NCBI GenBank assembly: GCA_016790175.1
Contig: JAEUPI010000156.1
Span: 1 to 47,729 of the forward strand
Reading direction: 5' to 3'
DNA length: 47,729 bases
From: Burkholderiaceae bacterium
GTDB lineage: Bacteria; Pseudomonadota; Gammaproteobacteria; Burkholderiales; Burkholderiaceae_C
The stretch's first letter is position 1; each line of letters begins with the position of its first letter. Below, piece after piece: positions 6,383-38,874 of this stretch. The notes under the pieces were generated by a model that saw nothing but the letters and a program-made list of their open reading frames with translations, ran no database searches and had not been told where the DNA came from. Both the position numbers and the translations under genes were made by a program.

Positions 6383-6410
6383 GGCAGCGCGGCGCAGGCT
6401 CAGGCGGCGC

Positions 6411-6470
6411 GGGGCCGTCCCAAGCCGACTGATCCCCCTCGGGGGGACGCGCGCAGCGAGCCCGTGGGCA
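6411..6470 (+). repeat. Dispersed GC-rich repeat, copy A
   Basis: Lies in the gap between mtgA and the hypothetical gene. The core is CCCCC-TC-GGGGGG, preceded by GGGGCCGTCCCAAG and followed by a GCGCAGCGAG-type half. The same order of blocks occurs at 35926-35999 (opposite strand) and 37495-37563. Here the repeat reads on the strand opposite to the genes. Relatives of this repeat are, from memory, common between genes of Comamonadaceae and related Burkholderiales. Confidence 0.7.
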
Positions 6471-33966: not shown

Positions 33967-34687
33967 CGCCTCGGCTGCGTCGCCACGCCTGGTAACGGGC
34001 TGCCGTGGCCTCGTTGGGCGGGTACAGGCCCGGCAACGCCACGCCGCGCTCGACCTCCTGCATGATCCAGCCCTCGAGCGTCTCCTGTTCCACCGCCTCG
34101 GCGACCACGGCATCGAGCATCGCTGCGGGGATCAGCACGGCGCCGTCGTCGTCGGCCACGACGACGTCGTTCGGGAACACGGCCACGCCGCCGCAGGCGA
34201 TCGGCTCCTGCCAGCCGACGAACGTGAGGCCGGCCACCGAAGCCGGTGCCACGGTGCCCTGGCACCACACCGACAGGCCGGTGCCGAGCACGCCGACGCC
34301 GTCGCGCACCATGCCGTCGGTCACCAGAGCGGCGACCTCGCGCTTGCGCATGCGTGCGCACAGGATGTCGCCAAAGATGCCGGCATCGGCGACGCCCATC
34401 GCATCGACCACGGCCACGCAGCCGGCAGGCATGGCCTCGATCGCTGCGCGCGTGGAAATCGGGTTGCCCCAGGAGGCTGGCGTCGCCAGGTCTTCACGCA
34501 CCGGCACGAACCGTAGCGTGAAGGCACGACCGATCACGCGGCCCTGGTTTGGTGCGAAGGGCCGGCTGTCACGGATCCACACATGGCGCAGGCCCTTCTT
34601 GAGCAGCACGGTGGTGAGGGTGGCGGTCGTCACGTGGCGCAGGGCGGCGACCACGCCGGGGCTCAGGGCCTGGACTTCGACGCTCAT
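33959..34687 (-). CDS. RraA-family protein
   Basis: 242 residues from ATG 34687. The RraA fold is evident: a lead helix, then GRAFTLRFVP, the core VVDAMGVADAGIFGDILCARMRKREVAALVTDGMVRD (spread over about 100-137) with the G-D/RD residues used for metal and substrate by the aldolase branch, and VVADDDGAVLIP. Two activities exist in the family: inhibition of RNase E (RraA) and 4-hydroxy-4-methyl-2-oxoglutarate aldolase. The length (about 240 rather than 160) and the intact D/RD residues leave both open. Upstream of, and overlapping, the photolyase gene. Confidence 0.88.
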   Translation of the reverse strand: MSVEVQALSPGVVAALRHVTTATLTTVLLKKGLRHVWIRDSRPFAPNQGRVIGRAFTLRFVPVREDLATPASWGNPISTRAAIEAMPAGCVAVVDAMGVADAGIFGDILCARMRKREVAALVTDGMVRDGVGVLGTGLSVWCQGTVAPASVAGLTFVGWQEPIACGGVAVFPNDVVVADDDGAVLIPAAMLDAVVAEAVEQETLEGWIMQEVERGVALPGLYPPNEATAARYQAWRRSRGDA

Positions 34688-34795
34688 CGGGGTTGTCACC
34701 TTTCTCGGTTGACTGCGTGTTGCGCACGGAACGCCAAGTGTCGCGCGGATCCGGCCGCCGGGTCTGCAACGCTGCCGGCCGGCAGCGACCGCGGC

Positions 34796-34832
34796 CTGTC
34801 GGGCCCCCCATCGAGGGGCGGCCCGCCGACAG
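34796..34832. promoter_or_regulatory. GC-rich hairpin upstream of yqgE
   Basis: Outer arms CTGTCGG and CCGACAG pair perfectly; inside them GGGCC-type and CCCC/GGGG blocks pair around an ATCGA loop. It lies 10 bases before a -10-like TAGAAT, where a -35 element would be expected. It might be an operator or the terminator of an antisense transcript. Confidence 0.4.
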
Positions 34833-34841
34833 GGTGGGGCA

Positions 34842-34847
34842 TAGAAT
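34842..34847 (+). promoter_or_regulatory. -10-like TAGAAT, 6 bases before yqgE ATG
   Basis: TAGAAT is followed by six bases and then ATG 34854. A transcript would start at about the A of the ATG. The nearest purine run (GGGG) is 15 bases upstream of the ATG, too far for a normal ribosome site. Confidence 0.5.
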
Positions 34848-34853
34848 GAATTC

Positions 34854-35432
34854 ATGGCCACGAGCCGTATCGACCTGACCAATCAGTTCCTGATCGCGAT
34901 GCCGGGCATGGCGGACGACACGTTCGCCCGCAGCGTGGTCTATCTGTGCGAGCACTCGGAGAAGGGAGCGCTCGGTCTGGTGATCAACAAGCCGATCGAC
35001 ATCAAGCTGAAGAACCTGTTCGAGAAGGTCGAGCTGTCGCTCGACCGCAAGGATCTCGCGGAGCAGCCCGTCTACTTCGGCGGCCCGGTGCAGACCGAAC
35101 GCGGCTTCGTGCTGCACGAGCGCATGGGCGGCGAGGACAGCCCCTACAACTCCACGCTCGCGATCCCCGGCGGACTCGAGATGACGACCAGCAAAGACGT
35201 GCTCGAGGCCATGTCGCACGGTGCCGGTCCGCGCCGGGTGCTCGTGACCCTGGGCTACAGCGGCTGGGAAGCCGGCCAGCTGGAGGAAGAGATCGGACGC
35301 AACGGCTGGTTGACGGTGAATGCCACGCCAGAGCTGATCTTCGACACGCCGGTCGAGCAGCGTTACGACAAGGCCCTGGCGCTGCTGGGCATCGATCCGC
35401 GCATGCTCAGCCAGGAGGCGGGTCACGCATGA
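34854..35432 (+). CDS. yqgE: YqgE/AlgH family protein
   Basis: 192 residues of the DUF179 (YqgE/AlgH) family: LTNQFLIAMPGMADDTFARSV at the start, LVINKPIDI, VYFGGPVQTERGFVLH, and the late LGYSGWEAGQLEEEI. Cytoplasmic, role poorly defined; AlgH affects alginate regulation in Pseudomonas. The gene ends GCA-TGA, with the TGA overlapping an ATG that opens a 28-residue frame leading to ruvX. It heads the yqgE-ruvX-pyrR-pyrB-pyrC'-plsC operon. Confidence 0.95.
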   Translation: MATSRIDLTNQFLIAMPGMADDTFARSVVYLCEHSEKGALGLVINKPIDIKLKNLFEKVELSLDRKDLAEQPVYFGGPVQTERGFVLHERMGGEDSPYNSTLAIPGGLEMTTSKDVLEAMSHGAGPRRVLVTLGYSGWEAGQLEEEIGRNGWLTVNATPELIFDTPVEQRYDKALALLGIDPRMLSQEAGHA

Positions 35433-35515
35433 GCCGGACGCGCGACCGTGCCTGCGCACGGGCGCGCGCCTGCGAATGGGCGGCGCGTCTCGCGGCGCGC
35501 GTGCTGCAAGCATGA
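35429..35515 (+). CDS. 28-residue micro-ORF bridging yqgE and ruvX
   Basis: A frame of 28 codons whose ATG overlaps the yqgE stop (ATGA) and whose TGA overlaps the ruvX start (ATGA). The peptide would be Arg/Ala/Cys-rich and very basic (starts MSRTRDRACARARACEW). The octamer GCATGAGC is repeated exactly at both ends (35427-35434 and 35510-35517). It is not obviously a copy of the dispersed repeat. It may act to couple translation rather than make a stable peptide; it could also be a chance open frame. Confidence 0.4.
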   Translation: MSRTRDRACARARACEWAARLAARVLQA

Positions 35516-35925
35516 GCAGCGCAGCTGCCGTGTCGCCTGCCCCGCCCCGTTCGTTCCTCGCGTTTGACGTCAGCCTGCGCCGGGTCGGCGTCGCTTGCGG
35601 CAGCACGTTGCTGCGCCAGGCGACACCGCTCGAGACCCTCATGGCCGAGGGGGACCGGCGGTTCGATGCGATTGCCCGACTGATCGCGCAGTGGCAGCCC
35701 GACGAGCTCGTGGTGGGGGTGCCGACCCATCCCGACGGCGCGCCGCACGACAATACCCGGCGCGCACAGCGATTCGCCCGCCAGCTGCACGGCCGCTTCC
35801 GGCTGCCGGTGCACGAGGTGGACGAGCGCTACACGACCACCGAGGCGCGTGCGGCCGGTGCGGCAGACCTGGATGCAGCCGCGGCCGTGCTGATCCTCGA
35901 GCAGTACCTGCGAACCCTAGCATGA
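35512..35925 (+). CDS. ruvX: Holliday-junction resolvase-like RuvX (YqgF)
   Basis: 137 residues from ATG 35512; a longer frame from 35476 has no support. RNase H-like fold: FLAFDVSLRRVGVACGS at the N-terminus with the first catalytic Asp, then LVVGVPTHPDGAPHDNTRRAQRFARQL and VHEVDERYTTTEARAAGAADLDAAAAVLIL carrying the further acidic residues. In bacteria YqgF acts in 16S rRNA 5'-end maturation. It ends GCA-TGA with ATGA overlap onto a repeat-derived micro-ORF. Confidence 0.95.
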   Translation: MSSAAAVSPAPPRSFLAFDVSLRRVGVACGSTLLRQATPLETLMAEGDRRFDAIARLIAQWQPDELVVGVPTHPDGAPHDNTRRAQRFARQLHGRFRLPVHEVDERYTTTEARAAGAADLDAAAAVLILEQYLRTLA

Positions 35926-36005
35926 CCACCCCCACGCTCACTTCGTTCGCTGCCCCCCAAGGGGGCGCGGCTGCGGCTTCGGGCGGCCGGGCGCCCCAGC
36001 CATGA
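35922..36005 (+). CDS. 27-residue micro-ORF through repeat copy B, bridging ruvX and pyrR
   Basis: A frame of 27 codons (starts MTTPTLTSFAAPQGG) opening with ATGA on the ruvX stop and closing with ATGA on the pyrR start. It is encoded entirely by the dispersed repeat. Direct repeats CATGACCACCC (35921-35931) and CATGAGCACCC (36001-36011) flank it, matching at 10 of 11 bases. A translational-coupling role is inferred from frame and overlap; the peptide is low-complexity and unlikely to fold. Confidence 0.35.
   Translation: MTTPTLTSFAAPQGGAAAASGGRAPQP
35926..35999 (-). repeat. Dispersed GC-rich repeat, copy B
   Basis: Read on the minus strand the block order is GGCCGCCCGAAG, CCCCC-TT-GGGGGG, CAGCGAACGAAGTGAGCG, then TGGGGGTGG. 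It matches copies A (6411-6470) and C (37495-37563). It lies between ruvX and pyrR and is oriented against the genes. Confidence 0.75.
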
Positions 36006-36505
36006 GCACCCTGACCCTCGACGCCGAAGCGCTGTACCGCGAGCTGCTCGCCGGCGTCCGACCGCTGCTCGCACCCGAGACCGTGCTCGTGGGCATCTGG
36101 TCGGGCGGTGCCTGGCTGGCCGAGCGGTTGCATGCCGACCTGCGGCGCCCCGGCGAGCCCGGCGTGATCTCCAGCGCGTTGCATCGCGACGATTTTGGCG
36201 CCAGGGGTCTCGCCGGCGGCGGCGACGCGACACGTCTGCCGTTCGCGATCGACGGCGCGCAGATCCTGCTCGTCGACGACGTGCTGGAAACCGGCCGCAC
36301 GATCCGCGCGGTGATCAACGAGTTGTTCGATTTCGGCCGTCCACGCAGCGTGCAGCTCGCGGTGCTGGTCGACCGCGGCGGCCGCGAACTGCCGATCCAG
36401 CCGGCGGCGGCCGCGGCGCGCCTCACGCTGCCGGCCGACCAGCGTCTGACGCTGGCACGCGCTGCCGACGGCCGCTTCACGTTCTCGTTCCGCCCGAAGA
36501 CCTGA
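36002..36505 (+). CDS. pyrR: Pyrimidine operon regulator / uracil phosphoribosyltransferase PyrR
   Basis: 167 residues of the type I phosphoribosyltransferase fold. The PRPP-binding loop [14 protein letters not shown] is at 88-101, and the PyrR-type [10 protein letters not shown] segment at 60-69. In Bacillus PyrR binds pyr mRNA to control attenuation; here the gene lies inside the pyr operon, 22 bp ahead of pyrB, but I see no matching attenuator hairpins, so a UPRTase or other role is as likely. Confidence 0.93.
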
Positions 36506-36527
36506 GCCCCAGAAGCCGACACCGCCG

Positions 36528-37490
36528 ATGCTCTCGCGCCGCAACCCCCAGCTCAACGCCCACGGCGAGCTGATCCACTTGCTGTCCATCGAGGGCCTGC
36601 CGCGCGAGGTGCTGACGCAGGTGCTCGACACCGCCGGCACCTTCCTCTCGGTGCACGAGCGCGAGGTCAAGAAGGTGCCGCTGTTGCGCGGCAAGAGCGT
36701 GTTCAACCTGTTCTTCGAGAACAGCACGCGTACGCGCACCACGTTCGAGATCGCGGCCAAGCGCCTGTCGGCCGACGTGATCAACCTCGACATCGCGCGC
36801 AGCTCCACGGCAAAGGGCGAGAGCCTGCTCGACACCATCGCCAATCTCTCGGCGATGCACGCCGACATGTTCATCGTGCGGCACAGCGAATCGGGCGCGC
36901 CGTATCTGATCGCGCAGCACTGTGCACCGCACGTGCACGTGGTCAACGCCGGCGACGGACGGCATGCGCACCCCACGCAGGGGCTGCTCGACATGTACAC
37001 GATCCGTCACTACAAGCGCGACTTCACGCAGCTCACGGTGGCGATCGTCGGCGATATCGTGCACTCGCGCGTGGCGCGCTCCGACATCCATGCGCTCACC
37101 ACGCTCGGCGTGCCCGAGGTGCGCGCCGTCGGTCCGCGCACGCTGGTGCCGGGCGATTTGCGCGAGATGGGCGTGCGCGTCTGCCACGACATGGCCGAAG
37201 GCATCCGCGGCGCCGACGTGATCATCATGCTGCGGCTGCAGAACGAGCGCATGAGCGGCGCGATGCTGCCTTCGGCCGGAGAGTTCGCGAAGACCTTCGG
37301 TCTCACACCCGACAAGCTCGCTCTGGCCAAGGCCGATGCCATCGTCATGCATCCGGGGCCGATCAACCGCGGTGTCGAGATCGAATCGAGCGTGGCCGAC
37401 GGCAGCCACAGCGTGATCCTGCCGCAGGTGACCTTCGGCATCGCCGTGCGCATGGCGGTGATGTCGATCATTGCCGGGAATGACGCATGA
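36528..37490 (+). CDS. pyrB: Aspartate carbamoyltransferase catalytic chain
   Basis: 320 residues, normal length. The carbamoyl-phosphate loop [12 protein letters not shown] is at 63-74, HPTQGLLD near the middle, and [13 protein letters not shown] near the end. It forms carbamoyl aspartate, the committed step of pyrimidine synthesis. In bacteria with an inactive dihydroorotase partner (next gene), PyrB assembles with it as a dodecamer. It ends GCA-TGA, overlapping the ATG of a repeat-derived micro-ORF. Confidence 0.97.
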
Positions 37491-37567
37491 GCGCTCGCCG
37501 GGCCGCCCCAAGAGCGCGAGTCCCCCATGGGGGGACCGGCGCGAAGCGCCGAAGGGGGCACACATGA
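37487..37567 (+). CDS. 26-residue micro-ORF through repeat copy C, bridging pyrB and pyrC'
   Basis: A frame of 26 codons (starts [16 protein letters not shown]) with ATGA overlaps on the pyrB stop and the pyrC' start. It is encoded by repeat copy C. The nonamer CATGAGCGC occurs exactly at both ends (37486-37494 and 37563-37571). The peptide would be short and strongly basic. It probably serves, if anything, to pass ribosomes from pyrB to pyrC'. Confidence 0.35.
37495..37563 (+). repeat. Dispersed GC-rich repeat, copy C
   Basis: The blocks are GGGCCGCCCCAAG, GTCCCCC-AT-GGGGGGAC and CGGCGC-GAA-GCGCCG, the last a perfect 6-bp hairpin. It sits between pyrB and pyrC' in the sense orientation. It matches copies A and B. 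Confidence 0.75.
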
Positions 37568-38874
37568 GCGCGAACCTGCTGATCCACGATGGCCGGGTGG
37601 TCGATCCGGCCAGCGGCCGCGACGAAACGGCCGACATCCTGATCGCCGACGGTCGCATCGCGCACATCGCCCCCGGACTCGACGGCGGAGGCGCGCGCCG
37701 CATCGATGCCGGCGGTTGCATCGTGATGCCCGGCCTGGTCGATCTCGCCGTGCGGCTGCGCGAGCCGGGCCACGAGCATGAAGGCATGCTCGAGAGCGAA
37801 CTTCAGGCGGCCGCCGCCGGCGGCGTGACCAGCCTGGTCTGCCCGCCCGACACCGACCCGCCGCTCGACGAGCCGGGGCTGGTGGACATGCTGAAGTTCC
37901 GCGCCCGCAAGCTGTCGTCGTGCCGGCTGTTCCCGCTCGGCGCGCTGACGCGGCGCCTCGAGGGCGAGGTGCTGACCGAGATGGCCGAGCTCACCGAGTC
38001 CGGTTGCGTCGGCTTCTCGCAGGCCGACGTGCCGGTGCGCGACACGATGGTGCTGCTGCGCGCGATGCAGTACGCGGCGACCTTCGGCTACGCCGTCTGG
38101 CTGCGGCCGCAGGACGGCTGGCTCGGCAAGGGCGTGGCCGCCAGCGGCGCGGTGGCCACGCGGCTCGGGCTGGCCGGCGTGCCGGTCGCGGCGGAGACGG
38201 TCGCCTTGCACACCGTGATCGAACTCGCGCGCGCGACCGGCGCGCGTGTGCATCTGTGCCGGCTGTCGAGCGCCGCCGGCGTGAACCTGGTGCGCCAGGC
38301 CAAGCGCGACGGGCTGCCGATCACCGCCGACGTGAGCGTGCATTCGCTGCACCTGACCGACGTCGACATCGGCTACTTCAATGCCGACATGCGCCTGACG
38401 CCGCCGTTGCGGCAGCAGGCCGATCGGACGGCGCTGCGCGAGGCGCTGGCCGACGGCACGATCGACGCGCTGGTCTCCGACCACAGCCCGGTGTTCGACG
38501 ACGCCAAGAATCTGCCGTTTGCCGAGGCCGAGCCCGGCGCCACCGCGGTGGAGTTGCTGCTGAGCCTGGCACTCAAGTGGGGGCAGGACCAGGGACTCGA
38601 TCTGCCGCGCACATTGGCCCGTGTGACCTGCGATCCGGTGCGTGTGCTCGGTGCGAGCCTGGGCTCGCTGGCCGCCAGTGCTGGCCGACTCGCCGAAGGC
38701 GGCATCGCCGATGTCTGCGTGTTCGATCCGACCACCACCTGGCGCGTCACGCGCGAGGGTCTGAAGAGCCAGGGCAAGCACACGCCGTTCGATTTTTCGG
38801 CCACCGGCACCGCCCTGCCGGGGCGTGTGCGGGCCACGGTCGTCGCCGGCACGGTCTCGTTCGAGGCGTCGTAG
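37564..38874 (+). CDS. pyrC': Inactive dihydroorotase-like protein PyrC'
   Basis: 436 residues of the type I dihydroorotase fold. The metal-binding signature that is normally D-x-H-V-H-x-R reads DLAVRLREPG from Asp60: both histidines are replaced (Ala62, Arg64), so the binuclear zinc site cannot form. A later SDHSP keeps the downstream Asp. This matches the non-catalytic PyrC' of Pseudomonas and Burkholderia, which is needed to assemble active aspartate carbamoyltransferase with PyrB. A catalytic dihydroorotase must be encoded elsewhere. It follows pyrB through a repeat-derived spacer. Confidence 0.92.
   Translation: MSANLLIHDGRVVDPASGRDETADILIADGRIAHIAPGLDGGGARRIDAGGCIVMPGLVDLAVRLREPGHEHEGMLESELQAAAAGGVTSLVCPPDTDPPLDEPGLVDMLKFRARKLSSCRLFPLGALTRRLEGEVLTEMAELTESGCVGFSQADVPVRDTMVLLRAMQYAATFGYAVWLRPQDGWLGKGVAASGAVATRLGLAGVPVAAETVALHTVIELARATGARVHLCRLSSAAGVNLVRQAKRDGLPITADVSVHSLHLTDVDIGYFNADMRLTPPLRQQADRTALREALADGTIDALVSDHSPVFDDAKNLPFAEAEPGATAVELLLSLALKWGQDQGLDLPRTLARVTCDPVRVLGASLGSLAASAGRLAEGGIADVCVFDPTTTWRVTREGLKSQGKHTPFDFSATGTALPGRVRATVVAGTVSFEAS

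Follow-up and report, generated by a model that had tools for sequence, protein, structure and literature searches.

The present analysis concerns the gene junctions of a yqgE-ruvX-pyrR-pyrB-pyrC operon in a 47,729-nucleotide stretch of DNA from a Burkholderiaceae bacterium (contig JAEUPI010000156.1), hereafter the window. The five genes are co-directional in that order, and three of their four junctions carry a short spacer bracketed by ATGA, the fourth, pyrR/pyrB, being a plain short spacer. Each bracketed spacer holds a micro-open reading frame (micro-ORF) whose entry ATG overlaps the TGA of the upstream gene and whose exit TGA overlaps the ATG of the next gene. According to the reading proposed here, to which a probability of about two in three is attached, such spacers are dispersed, start/stop-directed elements carrying a micro-ORF that relays ribosomes between coupled genes, and lengths that break the relay are removed by selection. 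The evidence comprises the anatomy of the sequences, their dispersal, a strand bias, empty sites in relatives, a frame bias with internal controls and hairpin covariation; transposition, re-initiation on the micro-ORFs and selection on expression would account for it. An earlier note on this DNA had interpreted the spacers as insertions at an ancestral ATGA overlap, retained for preserving the coupling, an interpretation that sequence comparison supports. The elements and genes concerned are listed below, F and A being the names given to the two orientations of the palindromic repeat shared by spacers 2 and 3.

35429..35515, + strand: micro-ORF 1, 28 codons, ATGA to ATGA, yqgE/ruvX junction (read from the sequence and recomputed)
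35433..35511, + strand: spacer 1, member of a second, smaller dispersed repeat family (copies in genome G004)
35922..36005, + strand: micro-ORF 2, 27 codons, ATGA to ATGA, ruvX/pyrR junction (read and recomputed)
35929..35993, + strand: repeat copy in spacer 2, type F orientation (repeat comparison)
37487..37567, + strand: micro-ORF 3, 26 codons, ATGA to ATGA, pyrB/pyrC junction (read and recomputed)
37495..37558, - strand: repeat copy in spacer 3, opposite orientation, equal to type A on the + strand (repeat comparison)
37552..37558, + strand: AAGGGGG, a Shine-Dalgarno-like run ahead of the pyrC start (from the sequence; putative function)
34854..35432, + strand: yqgE (NCBIfam)
35512..35925, + strand: ruvX, start at ATGA, with a further in-frame ATG at 35476 (NCBIfam)
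36002..36505, + strand: pyrR (NCBIfam)
36528..37490, + strand: pyrB (NCBIfam)
37564..38874, + strand: pyrC, dihydroorotase (NCBIfam)

The earlier note had reported the three ATGA-to-ATGA frames and their ATG-to-ATG distances of 83, 80 and 77 nucleotides, all 2 modulo 3 (the relay class in what follows), and direct reading and recomputation returned the same values. The flanking direct repeats likewise read as claimed, GCATGAGC (8/8), CATGA-n-CACCC (10/11) and CATGAGCGC (9/9), and the gene identities were upheld in NCBIfam (YqgE, RuvX, PyrR, PyrB and dihydroorotase). Three window spacers out of three in frame would nevertheless arise by chance once in 27 cases, so that the weight of the argument rests on wider counts.

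The core of the spacer 2/3 repeat, CCCCCNNGGGGG, matched 40 times in the window's genome, with overlap between the members of two pairs, versus once for the reversed-pattern control, and 33 distinct copies occur in the examined stretches of that genome. Repeat copies come from searches scoring a limited number of candidates per genome, and the related loci entering the counts are not fully independent. With at most 15 candidates scored per genome, 46 of the 60 family genomes gave the type F consensus (E up to 1e-6); among 72,556 plasmid records, 14 contain it as well, including Paraburkholderia, Burkholderia, Variovorax and an Azoarcus. In three annotated plasmid records the repeat lies between co-directional genes in the same sense, after ATGA, TAG and TAA stops. 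The Azoarcus copy (locus L398, Azoarcus sp. KH32C plasmid pAZKH), which lies outside the Burkholderiales at a sensor kinase/chemotaxis methylesterase junction, shows an ATGA-to-ATGA frame of 29 codons. The same repeat was found at mraY/murD, at aroE, and at an ABC permease gene and an acyltransferase gene, the last two scoring below the NCBIfam cut-offs. Spacers 2 and 3 had been recognized from the outset as dispersed copies in opposite orientations, and this stands; the claim has to be extended to spacer 1, whose family forms a tandem doublet at the same yqgE/ruvX junction in G004 and has an 84% copy between two ATGAs elsewhere in that genome. A weak relative of spacer 1 (L378, G001:C8 around 77649) is located away from any start/stop overlap, with CCTGA on either side, a hint of TGA-directed insertion. 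Inside the window, a further repeat copy (6408-6468, - strand) separates co-directional minus-strand genes and follows a CTGA stop, and thus does not sit at a start/stop overlap.

The edges and the orientation of the copies were followed in the type A set, made of 103 distinct copies from stretches of six genomes of the genus. A TGA occurs at the left edge in 90 of the 103 copies, near the right edge in 89, where chance would give about 16%, and at both edges in 82. The spacer count, from which 8 of the 103 copies were dropped as lying inside a called gene or at an edge, covers 81 intergenic spacers: 70 are co-directional with the repeat in one sense and 4 with the repeat in the other, 2 are convergent and 5 divergent. 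The type F copies at named and family loci show a similar distribution: 31 are co-directional in one sense, of which 4 are too distant from a gene to enter the frame count, a single copy has the opposite sense, another stands in a divergent spacer, and 4 more fell inside a gene or at an edge.

Empty sites, for which the earlier note had proposed to look in relatives, do occur. In the closest relative (L073, PyrB 98%; L154 is identical to it by sequence) direct ATGA overlaps are found at yqgE/ruvX, ruvX/pyrR and pyrB/pyrC, and a survey of junction states in 86 sequences, i.e., 85 relatives plus the window, showed the direct overlap to be the commonest state at each of them (43/78, 57/83 and 50/85 scored, respectively). 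At the aroE junction, filled in G004, two of four relatives (G001 and G003) display a direct GTGA overlap, in G002 the stop is GTGA and a GTG start follows 14 nt further on, and G005 has a CTGA stop followed by a gap. A single junction is occupied by type A in G004 and, in the window's genome, by type F, so that repeated occupation of a site is possible.

The frame of the spacers was examined next to their stops, using outside the pyr set the starts called by a simple codon-model caller trained on the window; whichever in-frame start is picked, the modulo-3 class of a spacer stays the same. Among the 70 co-directional type A spacers, the upstream stop overlaps an ATG, GTG or TTG in 64, and following these 64 from stop to start yielded 53 unbroken chains, 6 in-frame fusions and 5 failures. 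Deletion or insertion of one nucleotide in silico left intact on average 17% or 10% of the chains, respectively (chains only, fusions uncounted). Single-copy coupled spacers belong to the relay class in 43 of 53 cases (p=1e-12). In 800 kb of sequence chosen blind to the repeats, spacers of 60-170 nt fall in the relay class in 29/45 cases after ATGA or GTGA stops versus 26/100 after CTGA, TAA or TAG; for spacers of 30-300 nt the figures are 42/79 versus 49/163, TTGA stops, counted apart, giving 4/11 and 13/28 for the two length ranges. At the pyr junctions, where starts were defined by homology, 25 of 33 spacers following an ATGA stop are in class (p=7.5e-7; 19/26 after clustering of similar spacers), together with 4/6 after GTGA and 2/9 after CTGA, TTGA, TAA or TAG. 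Since the 25 in-class ATGA spacers range from 44 to 356 nt, a single fixed insert length cannot explain their frame class. Within type A, core and tail lengths compensate each other, 24 of 29 copies being in class versus 19.5 upon shuffling (p=0.006). Set against the expectation of one third named in the earlier note, a relay-frame bias after ATGA/GTGA stops was thus obtained in the 800 kb set, at the pyr junctions and in the type A chains. A GAGCCCC... subfamily of type A with a 75-nt step (L326, L340 and L346; genomes G004 and G003) places its micro-ORF in frame with the next gene, and such a fusion would add a 25-residue N-terminal extension.

Type A cores measure about 68 nt and comprise three hairpins. 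In 28 copies drawn from 57 full-length ones as a single alignable subfamily, these hairpins are supported by 26 doubly changed cells versus 4.6 in shuffles, and 97% of the cells are paired. Of 82 type A copies, 70 have a Shine-Dalgarno-like run ahead of the right TGA; the last run of G residues lies 4-7 bases ahead of the start in 26 of 29 copies, and GGGAG or GGAGG closes many of the type F copies listed, a short way ahead of the ATG. Within the window such a run is confined to spacer 3, spacers 1 and 2 being devoid of it. The micro-ORFs of the elements most often count 24-27 codons. Window spacer 2 and Azoarcus L398 share a core that is read in different frames, both leaving it in the relay class; to judge from these sequences the exit frame looks conserved and the peptide does not. 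An extra hairpin of about 27-30 nt (GGAGCCACGAAGGGGCTCC-like) is nested in the central hairpin of L039, L252, L338, L342, L044, L362, L236 and L242, and several of these spacers stay in the relay class.

Other explanations of the spacers were considered and set aside. A single conserved peptide was rejected in view of the different core frames of window spacer 2 and L398. A gene-specific leader peptide or a pyr attenuation device does not agree with the presence of the same element at mraY/murD, aroE and the permease and acyltransferase genes, nor with peptides lacking a Pfam match (the three window peptides gave none, one hit at E=0.23 being below the cut-off). A known RNA family was rejected as well, no Rfam match over threshold occurring in positions 34500-38000 of the window, where the only hit was a sub-threshold CRISPR-DR23 one inside pyrB. 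RNA structure as the sole reason was discarded on the basis of the folding of the window copies, no better than that of shuffles (see below), though the hairpins covary between copies.

The best reading of the spacers is that they are mobile, start/stop-directed elements with a micro-ORF and, often, a Shine-Dalgarno-like end. The target of such elements would be an RTGA at which the upstream stop is overlapped or closely followed by a start codon, and once inserted they would stand with RTGA at both ends. A ribosome finishing the upstream gene would restart on the left ATG or GTG, be carried across the element by the micro-ORF, terminate at the TGA that overlaps the following start and begin anew on that start, in many cases assisted by the element's Shine-Dalgarno-like end. 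Selection would purge copies of a length that interrupts the relay, and hence the exit frame would be kept while peptide and length vary. A broader proposal, held with about even confidence, makes of these repeats a class of mobile elements whose niche is the overlapping stop and start: they would integrate at that point, re-create the overlap on either side and persist only as long as they can be translated as relays, so that the ribosome would police the length of the element. Several repeat families of these beta-proteobacteria would have converged on this way of life, and tandem arrays would act as multi-step relays.

Several observations weigh against the relay reading and have to be counted with it. 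Many right-hand ATGAs are start codons subject to their own selection. The mraY/murD junction, filled in G004, lacks the repeat in all three relatives read (G000, G002 and G005), but the empty sites are short gaps instead of overlaps (in G000 and G005 a GTGA stop with an ATG 7 nt past the T of the stop, in G002 a TAG with a later GTG), which demonstrates insertion and not insertion into an overlap. Five of the 64 chains fail (L306, L309, L331, L332 and L361), although L306, L331 and L361 look, by eye, like miscalled starts; 8 of the 33 pyr spacers after ATGA are out of class; and type F copies are in class in 7/10 cases after ATGA, 2/4 after GTGA and 0/2 after TTGA. An early and noisier count at named loci, affected by start miscalls, gave 15/25 in class after CTGA or TTGA stops for spacers of 60-400 nt, and the period-75 subfamily of type A yields a fusion in place of a relay. 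The three window copies fold no better than shuffles (z of -0.09, 0.50 and -1.71). With respect to the insertion at an ATGA overlap with duplication postulated in the earlier note, the empty sites with a direct overlap agree with the insertion, whereas the duplication fares less well: the base before the TGA is identical at both ends in 53 of 82 type A copies versus 44 by shuffling, which suggests a target duplication at most weakly. Finally, the Y1 transposase PF01797 was detected in none of six genomes of the genus (three of them at least 90% complete) by a search that sought no other transposon family and recovered its control in 5/14.

The frame bias could also result from insertion specificity alone, the elements recognizing TGA/RTG and having a length that happens to be 2 modulo 3, with no selection on the frame. 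This is considered unlikely, while deserving some weight. The edge-to-edge distances most often seen in type A, 74 (29 copies) and 77 (16 copies), each equal 2 modulo 3. Of the 7 spacers that are convergent or divergent, 5 carry TGA on both edges, which favours target recognition apart from coupling. Among 15 copies looked at in uncoupled or uncertain settings, the distance could be measured in 12, of which 6 belong to class 2, again a lean towards that class; part of the bias accordingly comes from the length of the element, and these counts do not fully disentangle fixed length from selection. Against this account, the same class is found in spacers of many lengths and of unrelated sequence, core and tail lengths compensate, and distances of 75 and 76 occur among the copies that are clearly uncoupled. 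Less credible still is the idea that the micro-ORF matters for holding ribosomes on the spacer RNA, so that Rho-dependent polarity is avoided, and not for delivering them to the next start: the frame bias would be the same under this idea, and an element possessing a Shine-Dalgarno-like end could by itself start the next gene, yet the idea needs no overlap of the stop with the next start, such as all 53 unbroken chains possess. That the repeats are ordinary intergenic palindromes without a translational role, their brackets and frame being by-products of common ATGAGC starts and of gene calling, is very improbable and already disfavoured, for although they are palindromic, dispersed and mostly intergenic in a lineage where ATGA and GTGA junctions are common, this leaves aside the excess of TGA near the right edge, the strand bias of both types and the frame bias in repeat-blind stretches and at homology-defined junctions.

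The elements can be compared with several known systems. Termination-reinitiation at ATGA/TGATG overlaps, in which two genes overlap directly (PMC6728339), has in common with the present elements the overlapping stop and start as a hand-over place between co-directional genes, and such an overlap was read at both ends of all three window micro-ORFs; here, however, a dispersed repeat separates the genes and its micro-ORF overlaps at each end, and inserted elements are not treated in the available part of that account. Repetitive extragenic palindromic (REP) sequences and REPINs include GTAG-tagged REPs whose ends supply stop codons (PMC3733652). They resemble the present repeats in being short, palindromic, high-copy and intergenic, with ends that supply coding signals, but in the present case that signal consists of a start/stop overlap subject to a frame constraint; the consensus ends of the 28 aligned copies, type A only, show no GTAG-type tag, and a REP driven by a REP-associated tyrosine transposase (RAYT) was rejected on the above-mentioned PF01797 result. 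Rickettsia palindromic elements (PMC10969869) are also small repeats with a translatable frame living with coding sequence; they are inserted in frame inside ORFs, whereas the present repeats are intergenic (70 of 81 spacers co-directional) and in-frame fusion concerns a minority (6/64). Pneumococcal BOX elements (PMC3049150) occur as repeats in transcribed regions, where they form short ORFs or supply stop codons as well, but the part of that source available describes no start/stop brackets, coupling or frame constraint. As regards miniature inverted-repeat transposable elements, defined by terminal inverted repeats, the two ends of the type A consensus, the only one compared, are not inverted copies of each other. 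The full-text literature, in a coverage that leaves out most subscription journals, yielded no account of repeats bracketed by start/stop overlaps.

An insertion between translationally coupled genes would normally be expected to weaken the operon, a difficulty that these elements appear to have solved, even in core operons such as pyr, mraY/murD and aroE. They would place unannotated micro-ORFs in many operons, and their many natural spacer variants provide material to examine over what distance, and in which frames, ribosomes that re-initiate can be carried.

Tandem arrays can be read as multi-step chains, with four 87-nt steps in Paucibacter L096 and two steps in L023, L316 and L356, while L370 and L371 read through as a single frame. 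A scan for paired GCATGA/CATGA motifs exceeded its reversed control in most of the rows listed; chance pairs being mixed in, it was left unused for the frame counts. Two arrays of another repeat, left out of the chain analysis, were also encountered (L372, G002:C1 around 900383-900536; L373, G002:C24 around 227838-228135), and every one of their units, of about 74 nt, spans from GCATGA to GCATGA.

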